64,000 bases of DNA. It comes from Megaustenia siamemsis (taxonomy: Eukaryota > Mollusca > Gastropoda > Stylommatophora > Ariophantidae). Positions 2,709 through 58,955 of the stretch are shown here, one piece after another. Below the pieces are notes generated by a model that was not told the DNA's origin, ran no database searches, and was given only the letters and a program-made list of their open reading frames with translations. The first letter of the stretch is position 1. Every line of letters begins with the position of its first letter. A program made the position numbers and the translations under genes. Where the stretch lies: NCBI GenBank assembly GCA_032433765.1, contig JAVIAB010000073.1, forward strand, positions 69,483,087-69,547,086. Reading direction: 5' to 3'.

Positions 2709-2733
2709 TATTGAGTTATTGAGTTATTTGCGG
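2709..2733 (-). repeat. NLR-1 3' terminal ATAACTCA repeat
   Basis: On the minus strand the element ends in about three copies of ATAACTCA. The stop codon of the RT/RNase H frame (2716-2718) falls inside this repeat, so there is essentially no 3' UTR. The same tail ends the copies at 17145 and 45195. Confidence 0.85.
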
Positions 2734-5418
2734 GTCATCATCATTGCACTCCGAACATGTCCATAGGTGCTCAGATCCCCTCCTCAGCAATTCCCTCAGT
2801 GTCCAGCGACTGACGACTCCAGTTCTATGTTGGTTGATAAGTCTTCTTACACGGCCACCAAGTTTCTCATTTCTGGCTGTGCCCATCTTAACTCCCATTT
2901 CCATCATCCGAAGAAGTGACGTTGATCTGTGTTTGTCGAAGTCCTGTGCTCTTCCCACATCTCGGAGTGCATTGATGACGTCCGCCCGATCCATCGGTTG
3001 CCCGTCCTCAACGACAGCGCAGCTAGCCAACCTGTCCGCTCTCTCATTTCCCCGTACTCCCGCATGTCCAGGGACATAGACAAAGGTGACCTTACGTATT
3101 TTGGATTTCTGCAACGACTCTACCCATTGCATGCGTACAAAGCCCGCCTCCACTTTTTTTATCATGCTCATCGAATCACTCAGTATACATGCGTGGATGT
3201 AATCTTGTGACTCTAACCATTTGAATGCCTTGGTCACTGCCATCACCTCCATTGTCATGCTACTCGTGGTCATGGCGTAAGCACCACTGTCTTCCTTGGC
3301 TATTCTGCCTGCCGAACGTGCTGTAAATGCCCATGCACTTTTTTCGTGTCGTCTTACAGATCCGTCTGTATAGATGACTGCATCTTTCTCATCGGTGTTA
3401 TCGCAGATGAGACCGTTGACCTCAGCATTAACCACGACTGGGTTCTGTTCCCTACTTTTCCTGTCGAGTGTGACAATACATGAGAAAGTCCCCTTGAATG
3501 ACGTAGGCACCGGTATCCACTCCTCACCAACGCTGATATTGGTAAGCCCACAGACCTGTTTGATGACATCTTCTGCTCGGCCCACCCATGATTTGCCTCT
3601 TTTTAGCCTGGTACCTTTCTCTGTGTTGAGCACGTGGTGCAATGGATGCTCTGTATCTGTACTAATCTTCAGGTATGCTCGTGCTCTCCAGATCTTGATT
3701 CTGTCATCCATGGTTGGAAAGTCAAGAAGATACCTCATTGCCACACAGGGAGTGTCCCTCGTACATCCCAGGATAATGCGCATGGCTTCATTTTCTATTT
3801 TCTCCAGCCTATCAATTTGAGTCGTACTGACAGTAAGAATGGCCAGGGCATACTCGATTGGTGCGAGGACTAATCCCTGGAACAGAAGAGTAAGTAGCCT
3901 CTGCTCGATGTTGGCAGCTGCCATGACCTTCAAGGCGGCTAATCCTTTGCGGGATTTTGTTATCACATGGTCAACGTGGTCCCGAAAACACAGGCTGCGA
4001 TCAAACTTAACTCCGAGGTATGTCATCAACTTGTCCCTGGTCACCTCATCAGCTCCCATTCGTACTACCGGTGTGGTCGTATTAACGATATGATTGTTAA
4101 GGGAGAACCATGAAACTGATGCTTTATTAGGATTAACCAAGGCACCTGAAACCCCACACCAGGAAGAAATGCGATCGAGTTCGTCTTGCATTGTGGAGGC
4201 GATTCCCCGTCTGTCTCTTCCCTGTCGATATACCAGAATATCATCAGCAAAAGTCATAGTTCTTCCCCTCCCATCCAGCTGTTGGGCCGTGATCGTTATT
4301 GTGTACACATTAAATAGAACTGGTGACAATGGTGAGCCTTGTGGCAGCCCAGGACAAATGGATGATGGCTCGGAAGACCAACTTCCACATCTGAGTATCA
4401 CCTTCCTCTGAAACAGTGCCGCGGCGACCCATCTTATGAGGAAGGGGTTCACCGCCAGTTTGAGAAGCATATGCATGAGATATTCAAATGGTACCCTGTT
4501 GTATGCATCCTCCAGATCTATAGCAGCAGCACATGTCTCCTCTCGTCTGTGGAAGCCTTCGAAGACGTCATAGGCAAATACTGCCGCATTGAGCCATGTC
4601 TCTTTGTTATATCTATAACCTCCGAGTGTGGATGGGAATACGCGTTTCTGTTCAAGGCGACACGTGAGGACACGGGCAACTATTTTCTCCAGCAGCTTGC
4701 CCGCAGTATTCTGCATTGTGATGATTCTGTAGGCACTGATCTGAGAATGGTCCTTGTTTGGCTTCGGTAGCGGTAGTAAGTAGCTGTGTAGCCACTCCTC
4801 CTTAATCTGGCCACTCCGAATACTGGCATTAAACTCATTGGCCAGTGTTGTCAAGTCGTCATCAGCTAAATCGCCTATGTCATCATACCGAACACCATCT
4901 GGACCAGGAGCAGTGTTGTGTGACCTTTTAAGTGTCGCGCGAATGGTATCGGTTGTGATTGTGAGATCTTCTTCCAGCCCTACATCCTCACACAAATTTG
5001 ACAAAGATCCCCGTATCCTCATTCTTACAGCCTCATTTCTTTGGTCCGTCTGCTCAATGTAGCGGGCAAGCAGGGCCTTCCCTTTGCTCTCATCAGATTT
5101 GTGTCATATCTGGTCGGTGCTCTGAAAGTCTGGTATACCTCTGTGTCGTGGTGTGCCATTCATGCACAGATGAAGGCGCCAGAATGTGGCTAGCGATTTT
5201 TCTGAGCACACTTTTTTACAGAAGTCATCCCATTTGGCATCCTTAGCCTGCTTAGCGCATAGTTTAAAGTGCATCATTTTTTGGTCGACCTCTACTTTCA
5301 GACGCTTCAAGAGCTCAGGTTGTGTTCTACCATACCTTCTGGCTTTCTGCCATGTCTTGACCGTTTGTCTCTTGCTCCGTCCTCGACATCTACGTTCCAC
5401 CAGGGTGGCTGCGTCCAT
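2716..5418 (-). pseudogene. Reverse transcriptase and RNase H of NLR-1 (one in-frame stop)
   Basis: One reading frame from 5418 to 2716, interrupted by TGA at 5104-5106. The lower part is an open frame of 768 codons from Met at 5022. In that numbering the RT shows the first catalytic Asp region AAIDLEDAYNRV (about 166-177), GLPQGSPLSPVLF (225-237) and the active-site FADD (258-261, nt 4240-4251). The RNase H follows with its four acidic residues in place: YTDGS (D553), TMEVMA (E592), LSDSMSM (D616) and GNERADRLA (D663). It ends in a short WTCSEC motif and ITQ, then stop. This enzyme would copy the element's RNA at the target site and degrade the template. The Met at 5022 is not the natural start: the frame is open further upstream, past the TGA, and joins the endonuclease after a frameshift. 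Confidence 0.88.
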
Positions 5419-15455: not shown

Positions 15456-16094
15456 ACTTTTAACGATCTTTGTGTTTTTGTTATAGTGTTCTTGTTAACA
15501 TAAAAAGAGCTTGTTATGGCAGTATCTGTTGTTTGGTTATCTTTTTGATCATTTGATAATTGTTTATCTATCTTGTTAATTTGTACTTTAATTTCATCTA
15601 TAGAGACAGATATAATTCGTTGTTTTGAACAAAATATATTATGACATCCACGCATGGTTTGACAACATGCCTCTGGTTCAAGCAACGCGTTCTAAAAGTA
15701 ACCTTACTTTAACGTTACCTTGTAGAGGCTTTCGGTGGTGTTTATCACAAGTAACTTCCGTGATGGTAATTATGTTCTTTGTCAATATGTATGTATATAT
15801 AATACTAACTTGAGATAATTTTGTTCAGAATCTAAAATGTATATCACAAAATCTCTAAACGAACTGTTTTAATCTAACTACTTCACTCCTAACTTACTGT
15901 TTGAAGCAGTTTCTTAAATTAGTCTGACTTTTCATTCTTGCTGTTGCTTCTGAATTCTTCGAGGGAACTCCTTATCTAACTAACTCCTAATACTACACTC
16001 TGCCCTGTGGCAGGTACTCTACTCTCGTCTACTATTTTGCTCTCGTCTACTATTTCTGCCTTTTTTTATGTATATCTCTTTATTGCATCGTTAC
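15456..16094. other. AT-rich unique spacer
   Basis: No gene recognised. ORFs of 60-80 codons have no domain. It ends at the target site of the NLR-1 copy. Confidence 0.35.
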
Positions 16095-17158
16095 ATTCAA
16101 TATTACACCTGTGTAGCAATGAGGTATCTTCTTGACTTTCCAACCATGGATGACAGAATCAAGATCTGGAGAGCACGAGCATACCTGAAGATTAGTACAG
16201 ATACAGAGCATCCATTGCACCACGTGCTCAACACAGAGAAAGGTACCAGGCTAAAAAGAGGCAAATTATGGGTGGGCCGGGCAGAAGATGTCATCAAACA
16301 GGTCTGTGGGCTTACCAATATCAGCGTTGGTGAGGAGTGGATACCGGTGCCTACGTCATTCAAGGGGACTTTCTCATGTATTGTCACACTCGACAGGAAA
16401 AGTAGGGAACAGAACCCGGTCGTGGTTACTGCTGAGGTCAAAGGTCTCATCTGCGATAATACCGATGAGAAAGATGCAGTCATCTATACAGACGGATCTG
16501 TAAGACGACACGAAAGAAGTGCATGGGCATTTACAGCACGCTCGGCAGGCAGAATAGCCAAGGAAGACAGTGGTGCATACGCCATGACCACGAGTAGCAT
16601 GACAATGGAGGTGATGGCAGTGACCAAGGCATTCAAATGGTTAGAGTCACAAGACTACATCCACGCATGTATACTGAGTGATTCGATGAGCATGATAAAA
16701 AAAGTGGAGGCGGGCTTTGTACGCATGCAATGGGTAGAGTCGTTGCAGAAATTCAAAATACGTAAGGTCACCTTTGTCTATGTCCCTGGACATGCGGGAG
16801 TAAGGGGAAATGAGAGAGCGGACAGGTTGGCTAGCTGCGCTGTCGTTGAGGACGGGCAACCGATGGATCGGGCGGAAATCATAAATGCCCTTCGAGATGT
16901 GGGAAGAGCACAGGACTTCGACAAACACAGATCAACGTCACTTCTTCGGATGATGGAAATGGGAGTTAAGATGGGCACGGTCAGAAATGAGAAACTTGGT
17001 GGCCGTGTAAGAAGACTTATCAACCAACATAGAACTGGAGTCGTCAGTCGCTGGACACTGAGGGAATTGCTGAGGAGGGGATCTGAGCACCTATGGACAT
17101 GTTCGGAGTGCAATGATGATGACCCGCAAATAACTCAATAACTCAATTCAATATTACA
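16095..17158 (+). mobile_element. 5'-truncated NLR-1 copy with 13-bp TSD
   Basis: The element occupies 16108-17145. It codes the last part of the RT/RNase H protein, in frame from CVAMRYLLDFP to ITQ and stop at 17139-17141. RNase H catalytic residues are present (YTDGS, TMEVMA, LSDSMSM, GNERADRLA). About 8 of 343 residues differ from the copy at 2716-5022, and there is no frameshift. A perfect 13-bp duplication ATTCAATATTACA flanks it (16095-16107 and 17146-17158), the hallmark of target-primed insertion. The ORF start at 16068 is flanking DNA, not a natural start. Confidence 0.93.
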
Positions 17159-26246: not shown

Positions 26247-26531
26247 GTTCTGCTTACATAGTAAAAGTAAAGTACCCCCGTCAGGCCAAGTGGCGTATAG
26301 GGAATATGGTGTTAGTGACCATAAATTTTACAGACCCTCGGCAAATGAATTTGTTGGGGTAATGTGGTCGGTATTACGATTATGTGCCGCTTTACTTTCC
26401 CAGAAAAAAATCCGGTACCCATTAAAGACTGGGTAAACGGAGCCGTCGGTTGGAATCGAAACCTACTTCTTGTCCTTTGTAGTCTAGTTCACTAACCACT
26501 GAACTATCGCGGCTCCCGTTCTACTTACATA
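26247..26531 (-). mobile_element. SINE-A with 14-bp TSD
   Basis: Element 26261-26517. On the minus strand it starts GGGAGCCGCGATAGTTCAGT; an A box lies in TAGTTCAGTGGTTAG and a B box in GGTTTCGATTCC. A body of about 180 bp follows with CACTAACACCATATTCCC and ACTTGGC, ending in an AGTAAAGT-type tail. Flanks GTTCTGCTTACATA (26247-26260) and GTTCTACTTACATA (26518-26531) form a 14-bp duplication with one mismatch. Same family as 40431-40688 and 58561-58824. Confidence 0.92.
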
Positions 26532-33896: not shown

Positions 33897-35406
33897 GATT
33901 CATGAATTAAAATGTAAAGGTCTTCTCCAGAACCTTGCGCTTTGAATGGAGAATATGTTGTTAGTGACCATATGTTTCCACGACAAAGGTATATTTTTTC
34001 GGTGACGGTATCACGCCACGCCGCCTTTACTTCCCAGAAAAATTACTGGTACTCATTTTTTTAGAAGCTGGGTGAACCCCGGAGCCTTGACGGTCTGAAA
34101 AGAAATTCGTCACTTCTGGGGATCGAACTCGGACACTTCTGATCAGGAAGCACACAAACCACTCAGCCACCGAGGCGAGCACACAAACCACTCAGCCACC
34201 GAGGCGAGCACACGAACCACTCAGCCACCGAGGCGAGCACACAAACCACTCAGCCACCGAGGCGAGCACACAAACCACTCAGCCACCGAGGCGAGCACAC
34301 AAACCACTCAGCCACCGAGGCGAGCACACAAACCACTCAGCCACCGAGGCGAGCACACAAACCACTCAGCCACCGAAACGAGCAGACAAACCACTCAGCC
34401 ACCGAGGCGAGCACACAAACCACTCAGCCACCGAGGCGAGCACACAAACCACTCAGCCACCGAGGCGAGCACACAAACCACCCAGCCACCGAGGCGAGCA
34501 CACAAACCACTCAGCCACCGGGCGAGCACACAAACCACTCAGCCACCGAGGCGAGCACAAAACCAATCAGCCACCGAGGCGAGCACACAAACGACTCAGC
34601 CAACTAGGCGAGCACACTAACCACTCAGCCACCGAGGCGAACACACAAACAATTCAGCCACCGAGGCGAGCACACAAACCACTCAGCCACCGAGGCGAAC
34701 ACACAAACCACTCAGGAACCGGGGCGAGCACACAAACCACTCAGCCACCGAGGCGAGCACACAAACCACTCAGCCACCGAGGCGAGCACACAAACCACTC
34801 AGCAACCGAGGCGAGCCCACAAACCACTCAGCAACCGAAGCGAGCACACAAACCACTCAGCCACCGAGGCGAGCACACAAACCACTCAGCCACCGAGTCG
34901 AGCACACAAACCACTCAGCCACCGAGGCGAGCACACAAACCACTCAGCCACCGAGGCGAGCACACAAGCCACTCAGCCACCGAGGCAAATACACAAACCA
35001 CTCAGCCACCGAGGCGAGCACAAAACCAATCAGCCACCGAGGCGAGCACACAAACGACTCAGCCAACTAGGCGAGCACACTAACCACTCAGCCACCGAGG
35101 CGAACACACAAACAATTCAGCCACCGGGGCGAGCACACAAACCACTCAGCAACCGAGGCGAGCACACAAACCACTCAGCCACCGAGGCGAGCACACAAAC
35201 CACTCAGCCACCGAGGCGAGCACACAAACCACTCAGCCACCGAGGCGAACACACAAACCACTTAGCCACCGAGGCGAGCACACAAACCACTCAGCCACCG
35301 AGACGAGCACACAAACCACTCAGCCACCGAGACGAGCACACAAACCACTCAGCCACCGAGGCGAGCACACAAACCACTCAGCCACCGAGGTACTGATTCA
35401 TGAATT
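33897..35406 (-). mobile_element. SINE-A2 with its 5' head expanded into an array, inside one 12-bp TSD
   Basis: GATTCATGAATT occurs at 33897-33908 and again at 35395-35406. Between them, on the minus strand, are about 43 copies of the SINE's first 29 nt (35393-34150), then one ordinary SINE. That SINE has an A box TGGCTGAGTGG, a B box GTTCGATCCCC (34119-34131), and a body with CACCCAGCTT, CTGGGAAGTAAAG and GTCACTAACAACATATTC. The body is the same as SINE-A, but the tRNA-like head differs. The duplication placed outside the array means the array is part of the inserted unit or grew in place after insertion. Confidence 0.85.
34150..35393 (-). repeat. 29-bp minisatellite made from a SINE head, about 43 copies
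   Basis: Plus-strand unit GAGCACACAAACCACTCAGC plus CACCGAGGC; its complement is the SINE-A2 5' end with the A-box motif TGGCTGAGTGG. Most units are identical. A block of variant units (CACAAAACCAATC, ACGACTCAGCCAACTAG, ACAATTC) near 34551-34660 recurs about 463 bp later at 35014-35120, so about 16 units were duplicated together. Confidence 0.95.
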
Positions 35407-40294: not shown

Positions 40295-41565
40295 CAAATA
40301 ACCTATGTTTTCTTAGATTATGCCAAGCATTAAAACAAGGTAAAGCACCAAGAAATAATCACAATTTTAGAAAGCGTTAACGTTGTGGGCAAAGGTCTTA
40401 GAATAATAAAGAACATGTACTAGCAACAAATAGCCGCGATAGCTCAGTGGTTAGTGAACTGGACTACAAAGGACAAAGGGTAGGGTTCGATCCCAACCGA
40501 CGGCTTCCGGTTTCACCCAGCCTTAAATGGGTACCGGATTTTGTCTGGGAAAGTAAAGCGGCACGGGCGTAATACCGACCACATTACCTCAAAAATCTTG
40601 TGCTGAAGGTCTGTAAAATTTATGGTCACTAACACCATATTCCCTATACGCCACTTGGCGTGACGGAGGTACTTTACACTTTTTTTTTACTGGCAACAAA
40701 CAGCGATCATAACAACTGGAAATCATTGGGAATGTTTCAACAAATGAAACAAGGTTAGGCAAGGTTGTGTGCAATCATCAGATTTATTTAATAAATATAG
40801 TGAGATTATTTTAAGATAAATGAGCGGCGTGCCTGGAGTAACAATTGGAGGTCATAATATAAATAATCTAAGGTATGCTGATAATACAGTCCAAATCGCT
40901 ATAAGTGGAAATAAGTTACAAGAATGGTTAGACATTATAGTGGAGGAAAGCAAAATAAAGGACTCAGCCTTAATAGCAAAACGACAGAAGTAATGGTAGC
41001 AACAAAGAAAAAGACAGCAGCGGAATGCACAATAAAGATAAGTGGAACAATATTAAAACAGATAAATGAATTTAAATATCTGGGAACAATGTTAACCTCA
41101 GATGGAATGGTACATGCACAACAGAGGTGAGATGCAGAATGGCGCAGGAAAAAGCAGCTTACCAAAAAATGAGGAGGATACTGTACAATAAATTTTGACA
41201 ATAGAAACAAGAAACAAAGTTCTTAAACATTATGTAGAGCCAGTCTTAACATATAGATGTGAATCATGGACAATATAACAACAGAAAAAAATCACTGGAG
41301 GTTGTTGAAATGCGGTTGTACAGAAGAAGGTTGAGAATATTATGCGTAGTTAACAAGAGTAATGGAAACGTTCTGAAAGAAGCCAAAACAAAAAGAGCTA
41401 ATTTCCAATATTAGGAAGAAACAATCATTTTTTTTGTTGCCAAGCAATGAGAAGGGAACAACTGGAATATATTGTAACAAACAGAAATGATAAATAACTG
41501 TAATAAAAAGGCATGATCCCCTACGTCAGCAGGCATGGTACTTTATGATGATGATGACGTCAATG
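40295..41565 (+). mobile_element. NLR-B RT-containing copy, interrupted by SINE-A
   Basis: Broken RT: KAFD-type start near 40318, then the SINE (40431-40688), then SGVPGVTIGGHNINNLRYAD with active site YADN (40874-40885) in place of YADD. FKYLGTMLTSDG follows (about 41070-41105) and degraded copies of the KRVLKCYVEPVLTY tail segment. It ends with CTACGTCAGCAGGCATGG ... TTTATGATGATGATG. Stops and shifts throughout, no function. Confidence 0.8.
40419..40700 (+). mobile_element. SINE-A nested in NLR-B, 12-bp TSD
   Basis: Element 40431-40688. A box in GATAGCTCAGTGGTTAG, B box GGGTTCGATCCC. Body CACCCAGCCTTAAATGGG, CTGGGAAAGTAAAGCGGC, GGTCACTAACACCATATTCC, with a T-rich end. Flanks ACTAGCAACAAA (40419-40430) and ACTGGCAACAAA (40689-40700) are a duplicated target with one mismatch, inside the RT of NLR-B. 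Confidence 0.92.
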
Positions 41566-44075: not shown

Positions 44076-45208
44076 ACTAACTGAACTTAAGACGCAAATT
44101 GACAAGCTGGACAAAACAGATTGAAGCTATGCGCATTATCTTGGGCTGTACGAGGGACACTCCCTGTGTAGCATGAGTATCTTCTCGACTTTCCAACCAT
44201 GGATGACAGGATCAAGATCTGGAGGGTAAGAGCATACATGAAGATAAGTGCAGATAAAGAGCATCCATTGCATCATGAGCTCAACACAGGGAAGAGTGTC
44301 AGACTAAAAAGAGGCAAATCATGGGTGGGCCGAGCAGAAGATGTCATCAAACAGATCTCTGGGCTTACCAATATCAATACCGGTGAGGAGAATGGATACC
44401 GGTGCCCACGTCATTCAGGGGCACATTCTCGTGTATTGACACGCTTGACAGGAAATGTAGGGAACAGGACTCAGTCGTCGTCAATGCGGAGGTCAACGGT
44501 ATCATTTGGGATAATACCGATAAGAAAGATGCAGTCATCTATAGAGACGGATCTGTAATACGACACCAAAGAAGTGCATGGGCATTTACAGCACGCTCGG
44601 CAGGCAGAATGGTCAAGGAAGACAGTGGTGCATACGCCATGACCACGAGTAACATAACGATGGAGGTGATGGCAGTGACCAGGGCATTCATCTGGTTTGA
44701 ATAACAAGATTACACCCACCATTTATACTGAGTGATTCGATGAGCATGATAAGAAAAGTGGAGGCAGGCTCTGTACGCATGCAATGGGTAGAGTAATTGC
44801 AGAAGTCAAAAATACTTAAGGTCACCTTTGTCTACGTCCTAGGACATGCGGGAGTACGGGGAAATGAAAGAGCGAACAGGTTGGCTAGCTGCGCTATTGT
44901 TGAGGACGGTCAACCAATGGATCGGGCGGACATCAGCAATGTCCTCTAGGAAGTTGGAAGGACACAGGACTTCGACAACCATGAGTCCACATCACTCCTT
45001 CTTGATTAAAGAGATGGGAGTTAAGATGGGCACCGCCAGAAACGAGAAACTTAATGGGTGTGTAAGAAGACTAATCAACCAACATAGAACTGGAGTCGTC
45101 AGTCGCTGGACACTGCAACACTTGCTGCGGAGGGGATCTAAGCACCTATGGACATGTTCGGAGTGCAGTGATGATGACCTGCTAATAACTCAATAACTAA
45201 CTGAACTT
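44076..45208 (+). mobile_element. 5'-truncated, degraded NLR-1 copy with 13-bp TSD
   Basis: Element 44089-45195. It aligns with NLR-1 from about residue 400 of the RT ORF (TCAAATTGA.AGGCTGGA-like) through FPTMDDRIKIWRVRAYMKIS to CSECSDDD. It is broken by frameshifts (near 44393, giving two overlapping ORFs) and stops; YTDGS has become YRDGS. It ends in ATAACTCAATA. A perfect ACTAACTGAACTT flanks it (44076-44088 and 45196-45208). It is clearly older than the copy at 16108. Confidence 0.92.
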
Positions 45209-58439: not shown

Positions 58440-58865
58440 AACCCAGAAATAGCTAAGTATAACACAGCAGTAAAAAGACATCACTGTAAAGCACAATAAA
58501 GACAAGTGGAACTATATTAAAACAGGTAAATGAATTTAAATATCTGGAACATAACCTCAGGTATGGAAGCCGTGATAGCTCAGTGGTTAGTGAACTGGAC
58601 TACAAAGGACAAGAGATCAGGTTCGATCCTGACAGACGGCTTCCAGGTTCACCCAGCCTTAAATGGTTCCGGATTTTTTCGGGGAAAGTAAAGCGTTACG
58701 AACGTAATACCGACCACATTACCCCAAAAATTATGTGCCGAAAGTCTGTAAAAATGATGGTCACTAACACCATATTCCCCATACACCACTTAGCGTGACG
58801 GGGCTCTTTACTTTACTTTTTTTTATAACCTCAGATGGTAGAAGTACAACAGAAGTGAGATGCTG
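58440..58865 (+). mobile_element. NLR-B RT fragment carrying SINE-A
   Basis: TAAACAGGTAAATGAATTTAA-like text (58520-58545) matches NLR-B at about 41055-41085 (the FKYLGTMLTSDG region). It resumes after the SINE as CTCAGATGG.AGAAGTACAAC (58830-58850). Confidence 0.7.
58551..58834 (+). mobile_element. SINE-A nested in NLR-B, 10-bp TSD
   Basis: Element about 58561-58824. A box in GATAGCTCAGTGGTTAG, B box AGGTTCGATCCTG, same body as 40431-40688. ATAACCTCAG occurs at 58551-58560 and 58825-58834. Confidence 0.9.
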
Positions 58866-58955
58866 GGTGAACCCGGAAGCCGTTGGTTGGGATCAAACCC
58901 TACCTTTTGTCCTTTGTAGTCCAGTTCACTAACCACTGAGCTATCGCGGCTCCCG
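58863..58955 (-). mobile_element. SINE-A head fragment
   Basis: Reverse complement begins GGGAGCCGCGATAGCTCAGT and reaches GGGTTCACCCAGC; the body is missing. It lies 30 bp from the complete SINE-A, in opposite orientation. Confidence 0.85.

Follow-up and report, generated by a model that had tools for sequence, protein, structure and literature searches.

In the 64,000-nucleotide stretch of DNA analysed here (the window, G000:C73:69483087-69547086), the 5' head of a putative tRNA-derived SINE has become a minisatellite of 43 units, and array and SINE lie together inside a single 12-bp target-site duplication. Arrays of the same head were found in sister copies of this SINE across the genome. 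We consider it likely that the SINE inserted first, that its head was then multiplied in DNA in place, and that this was repeated separately in many sister copies.

Structure of the window locus

The features of the locus, in window positions, are the following:

33897..33908, no strand: left 12-bp target-site duplication copy, GATTCATGAATT, on the 3' side of the SINE
33909..34148, minus: SINE body (3' tail, central part, B box, anticodon-arm-like part)
34118..34132, minus: single B box, CCGAGTTCGATCCCC, which we take to be such from its motif
34149..34177, minus: body-proximal head unit, spanning tRNA-like positions 1 to about 29, A box included
34149..35390, minus: 43-unit head array (29 bp; a few of 28 bp)
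34528..34663, minus: first copy of a 136-bp block, repeated exactly at 34991-35126, 16 units (463 bp) apart
34991..35126, minus: second copy of the 136-bp block
35391..35394, minus: 4 bases separating the array from the right target-site duplication, where many sister copies have a GGA leader
35395..35406, no strand: right 12-bp target-site duplication copy, GATTCATGAATT, on the 5' side of the SINE

The two copies of GATTCATGAATT start at 33897 and 35395, and the sequence has no further site in the window on either strand. Random pairs of similar-size stretches from this repeat-rich window shared at least 12 bases in 53 of 19,927 draws, which puts the chance of such a 12-bp repeat at about 0.3%; the direct repeat that the first-pass annotation had placed around SINE and array is thus confirmed. 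Tandem Repeats Finder delimited the array at 34149-35390 (period 29, 42.9 copies, 93% matches), and 43 A-box anchors were counted within it, 31 of them with the exact GGTGGCTGAGTGG, in agreement with the roughly 43 tandem heads and the single B box described earlier. Head spacings are 29 bp in 39 of 42 cases and 28 bp in the other 3. The A box adjoining the B box lies at ordinary tRNA-like spacing, and every next A box is 29 bp more distant. The array also contains a multi-unit internal duplication, the duplicated 136-bp block carrying rare variants.

Two details of the earlier description needed adjusting. The unit had been called the first 29 nt of the SINE; it is indeed head-derived and 29 bp long, but the GGA leader falls outside it, so that it spans tRNA positions of about 1-29. 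Likewise, the DNA between the direct repeats is nearly all SINE and heads, apart from the 4 bases at 35391-35394. The broader claim, that a retrotransposon promoter gave rise to tandem DNA, holds at this locus, as the array consists of the SINE's own head and lies within its target-site duplication. The array is also a minisatellite derived from a transposable element (TE) in the accepted sense of a 10-100 bp tandem unit that comes from part of such an element.

The unit, GCCTCGGTGGCTGAGTGGTTAGTGTGCTC, corresponds to tRNA positions 1 to about 29: it starts with the acceptor stem's 5' strand, runs through the D arm, where the A box lies, and ends a few bases into the anticodon arm. GGA precedes position 1 in many sister copies. 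In single-head copies the body restarts at position 30 with GCTTCC or near it, which resembles the GCCTC of position 1. Against RF00005, the single-head sister L060 matched positions 1-71, the whole tRNA model, at 26 bits, below the curated gathering cut-off of 29 (E 0.058 among 8 loci, 0.0013 alone). L060 was the only one of those 8 loci with a tRNA match, the window copy gave none in a tRNA search, and ARAGORN found no tRNA in 11 sister loci; the head is therefore tRNA-like rather than a tRNA gene. The element as a whole would class as a tRNA-derived SINE, its tRNA-like head with A and B boxes resting on L060 and on the box motifs.

The family is dispersed and multicopy, with 2873 first-look candidates from a query with the SINE body, of which 40 were scored. 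Direct repeats scoring at least 8, as expected of target-site duplications, flank 17 of 29 rows (two of the 17 being the window copy) compared with 44 of 580 controls, and two copies with two heads, L010 and L012, have duplications of 11 and 9 bp, respectively.

TFIIIC binds mainly via the B box, so that a role of the isolated A boxes of the window array as a TFIIIC/pol III decoy is not supported. The multi-start promoter that the first-pass annotation suggested alongside the decoy would be purely hypothetical. It is also quite unlikely that the heads are still active, with pol III starting at various A boxes and multi-head RNAs inserting as ready-made copies; if they were, the SINE would spread minisatellite seeds across the genome.

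The window holds further repeats of several kinds. Its 22 arrays with a period of 10-100 and at least 4 copies, the SINE-head array included, make up 28% of positions 1-64000, and all tandem repeats 31%; given this wealth of unrelated minisatellites, the genome may favour tandem growth in general. A non-LTR retrotransposon is represented by open frames or pieces at 2716-5103 (minus), 15984-17141 (plus) and 44172-45196 (plus). Relatives of the second of these have reverse transcriptase and RNase H domains, and among 92 matches to a LINE protein of the window the sole one named by organism came from the land snail Bradybaena similaris (60% identical).

Sister copies and their arrays

A search of the genome for other multi-head copies, as proposed in the first-pass annotation, covered 2.59 Gb in 155 contigs and yielded 47 distinct loci with at least four tandem heads of the window SINE, read whole or in part. 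This figure is a recount of 55 loci less the same-place repeats L009, L119, L120, L121, L122 and L123, the duplicate L118, and L022. The last of these has a run of 4 head-like motifs apart from its single-head SINE. The largest stretches contain 64 heads (L048), about 68 (L116 and L121 together) and about 74 (L108 and L119 together, with 37 and 41 heads and an overlap of roughly 100 bp). The view of the window insertion as a single remarkable locus was abandoned once these sister loci had been read, as copies bearing anything from 4 to about 74 heads occur across the genome.

The frequency of expansion was estimated from two samples, neither of which was chosen for arrays. The first, the best 39 other copies scored of the 2873 body-query candidates (among them L020/L021, a duplicated pair without heads), comprised 12 copies with no full head, 19 with one, 3 with two and 5 with 9-22 heads. 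These counts depend on the script: the automatic count was 11, 21, 3 and 4 (none, one, two and more), and reading of L039, which has 31-bp units, and of the partial heads of L024 and L040 led to the values given. The second sample, of 38 copies, was selected for a GGA-bearing 5' end, being drawn from the first 100 places of 315 exact 32-nt 5' ends after exclusion of two tandem clusters (L071, a satellite, and L059, a 45-bp array), and included 34 copies with one head and 4 with at least four. A looser counter gave L037 and L095 two heads; on reading they were counted as one. Pooled, the samples contain 65 head-bearing copies, 53 with one head, 3 with two and 9 with at least four. Seven other loci read first, from the initial query, carry 9-23 heads, and this sample is biased because that query itself contained heads.

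An exact genome-wide pattern in which an intact 5' end is followed by a head-head junction of 29 bp occurs at 25 places on many contigs, and the corresponding pattern with the body-like junction GCTTCC at 129 places, a number that overcounts single heads since 7 of these places make up a single 45-bp array and one further place at least, L064, is a 31-bp array. By extrapolation from at least 2873 candidates, expanded copies would number a few hundred genome-wide. Separately, at L071 (G000:C8:24706447-24757905), 14 exact SINE 5' ends recur about 3.95 kb apart in a long-unit tandem satellite; the copy that was read has a truncated head of the window SINE family.

Arrays typically remain joined to SINE bodies. 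A query with the array only returned 410 first-look candidates, of which 40 were scored, and among 20 arrays whose edges were fetched, 18 have a same-strand SINE body on the side where one is expected (17 when L117/L118, a duplicated pair, count as one). For one of the others, L108/L119, the array spans the entire fetched stretch. The other, L113/L120 (G000:C24:2087800-2090400), has a proper 5' start and no SINE body, and is flanked by two other minisatellites. The first-pass annotation had named arrays lacking SINE bodies as evidence against the link between the two; this one array in 20 is such a case, which is not enough to dissolve the link. Two arrays 519,199 bp apart (G000:C73:54132637-54133850 and C73:53613438-53614651) have an identical match pattern and look like a duplicated chromosome segment carrying one array. 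The right flank of the window insertion matched only itself in a genome search. The left flank forms the end of a different repeat, 39 other scored relatives of which (of 1247 candidates) are 71-79% identical.

A second SINE family, with the head GAGCCGCGATAGC, is present in the window as four single heads, at 40433-40466 and 58569-58602 (plus) and at 26480-26513 and 58917-58950 (minus). Among 28 insertions of this family, two of which share one sequence, a single one (L089) has more than one head, namely three with a 65-bp period. Its unit apparently extends into 5' flanking DNA, an outcome that duplication at the DNA level would produce. More than one head occurs in 12 of 65 copies of the first family versus 1 of 28 of the second (Fisher p 0.10); setting the 9 of 65 first-family copies with at least four heads against the same second-family case of three heads gives p 0.27, so that the contrast in proneness to expansion is suggestive only.

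Probable growth in place and its alternatives

Insertion of the tRNA-derived SINE would have proceeded by target-primed reverse transcription, the established mechanism for SINEs, and left the 12-bp duplication seen in the structure of the locus. The A-box-bearing 5' head (tRNA positions of about 1-29) would then have been duplicated in DNA between the similar GCCTC at position 1 and GCTTC at position 30, and the resulting perfect 29-bp repeat may have grown through slippage, gene conversion or unequal exchange, in part by the copying of several-unit blocks. Like arrays would have been born separately in many sister copies of the family.

The patterns within arrays favour such post-insertion growth over the arrival of complete arrays with the RNA or cDNA, a choice that the first-pass annotation had left open: the majority of single-head copies, the array-specific variants, the low unit diversity, the other registers and the 136-bp block all point in this direction, without being decisive. 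Over all head spacings read, 554 of 599 are 29 bp. Other registers are 31 bp (L039, L064), 24 bp (L035), 45 with 29 bp (L059) and 50/29 bp (L072), and L119 is a mixture that includes shorter mixed units. At L059 (G000:C25:23894100-23895500), both 45-bp and 29-bp tandem units come from the head of one SINE. The Haber-Louis model calls for direct repeats of 5-10 bp flanking the unit in the unduplicated copy. In single-head copies GCCTC and GCTTC lie 29 bp apart and agree at 4 of 5 bases, the exact part being 2 bp. An exact match of 4 bp exists for the less common 24-bp register, and the dominance of the 29-bp register is therefore not accounted for by microhomology alone. Single-strand folding of five units was only somewhat better than that of shuffled sequences (z -1.9 and -2.8; 7 and 3 of 200 shuffles equally good).

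In 12 of 25 arrays at least one position has a commonest base other than that of the family unit; the remaining 13 have no such position. Several such variants are nearly fixed, both end units included: position 5 in L007 (9 of 9 units), position 11 in L044 (9 of 9), position 3 in L053 (17 of 18), position 21 in L054 (8 of 8) and position 12 in L058 (40 of 41). They are not strictly private, with C at position 12 a minority variant in L006 and T at position 3 in L059. T at position 21 is common to the window array, L048, L049 and L052, and may be a subfamily variant since it also occurs in the single-head L023; the query carried it as well. Units differ on average at 1.43 of 29 positions within loci and at 2.48 between loci (23 arrays; L065, L067, L068 and L087 unscored, the stretches of L065 and L067 ending before the SINE body).

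Unit diversity was further compared with twice the divergence of the adjoining body, and the ratio ranged from 0.00 to 0.62 over 23 arrays (L064 and L072 lying outside this set), with 0.19 for the window array. Homogenisation within an array also lowers unit diversity, and the age argument is therefore not decisive: an array formed at insertion could look young through homogenisation. The window body differs by 17.6% from the consensus and by 15% from the nearest copy in the sample; as its 12-bp repeats are identical, part of this divergence may predate the insertion. Body divergence does not clearly separate single-head from multi-head copies (medians of 0.054 and 0.079 for single copies of the two samples; 0.034-0.113 for multi-head copies).

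The strongest alternative, which we nonetheless regard as unlikely, is that extra heads were made during insertion itself, the reverse transcriptase near the RNA 5' end jumping from GCCUC to GCUUC at position 30 and recopying the head one or more times, with later turnover homogenising the array. The 29-bp register fits a GCCTC/GCTTC jump as well, and so do the position of the array within the target-site duplication and the 11- and 9-bp duplications around the two-head copies L010 and L012. In 5 of 9 arrays (L002, L004, L005, L006 and L008), moreover, the outermost unit retains the GGA leader. However, the repeated 29-bp unit lacks this leader, so that the jump would need to begin before the end of the RNA. 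The other registers, the compound units of L059, L072 and L119 and the multi-unit block duplication instead indicate DNA-level events, and unit diversity lies below what body divergence predicts.

Retroposition of a source SINE that already had two or more heads, followed by expansion of its copies, is a considerably more doubtful explanation, even though most arrays use one junction and the 25 exact multi-head 5' ends are found on many contigs. Against it, the array-wide variants are unlike between arrays. Two-head copies are also rare, at 3 of 65 in the two samples together, and one of these 3 has the 24-bp register. A tree of SINE bodies, built without rows L009, L021 and L118, showed no clustering of multi-head copies: with 45 one-head copies and 40 copies of at least 3 heads it required 28 changes compared with a shuffled mean of 28.7 (95 of 200 shuffles equal or lower), and with the samples not chosen for arrays 7 compared with 6.7. 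This is a weak test, because control columns cluster only weakly in the tree (five columns, each left out in turn, gave 4, 67, 19, 6 and 21 of 100 shuffles equal or lower), and the tree was dropped as an arbiter between common descent and independent births. Finally, an older 29-bp array from which the SINE arose, or beside which it landed, might account for the body-less array at L113/L120, but this is extremely improbable given that the window duplication encloses array and SINE together, that one-head copies are the majority in both samples, that 18 of 20 arrays end in a same-strand SINE body, and that the right flank matched no other copy.

Relation to known TE-derived minisatellites

Growth in place, the reading we prefer, bears on a poorly known process, the birth of minisatellites. 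Sister SINE copies with a similar starting sequence serve as replicates of it (2873 first-look candidates), and their fates differ: most sampled copies are single, some have doubled, some have reached tens of units, and in a few the breakpoints were different. The family could thus allow direct measurement of birth rate, growth and the preferred register. A search of titles and abstracts in one literature collection returned no account of the window SINE family or of multi-head expansion of a tRNA head. Two mollusc SINE studies, one of them Matetovici et al. 2016, are cited in PMC11203168.

Closest are the human Alu minisatellites (Ahmed and Liang 2012, PMC3389668; Jurka and Gentles 2006, as cited therein), in which local duplication likewise turns part of a SINE into a tandem array and short direct repeats have been proposed as the seed; the postulated mechanisms are reported there to explain only 6% of TE-derived arrays in human. 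Unlike in Alu, most arrays read here are built from one and the same part, the 5' tRNA-like head with its A box, and at least four units are present in 9 of 65 sampled head-bearing copies. The mouse B1-derived family (Bois et al. 1998; PMC9659126, PMC6947457) similarly consists of unstable VNTRs from one SINE family, although its unit, as described in these sources, is (GGCAGA)n from a dimer within B1 rather than a 29-bp tRNA-like head. Hy/Pol III of Hydromantes and Satellite 1 of Xenopus laevis also represent tandem DNA from a tRNA-related, SINE-like region (PMC9659126), yet these are satellite DNA families, whereas the arrays described here are short, dispersed and mostly still joined to SINE bodies (18 of 20 tested). 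Among molluscs, PcH-sat of the limpet Patella caerulea has been traced to a SINE, Nin-SINE (PMC11121367). TE-derived minisatellites are thus already well known, and the window case is a well-replicated further example, in which expansion is unusually frequent.
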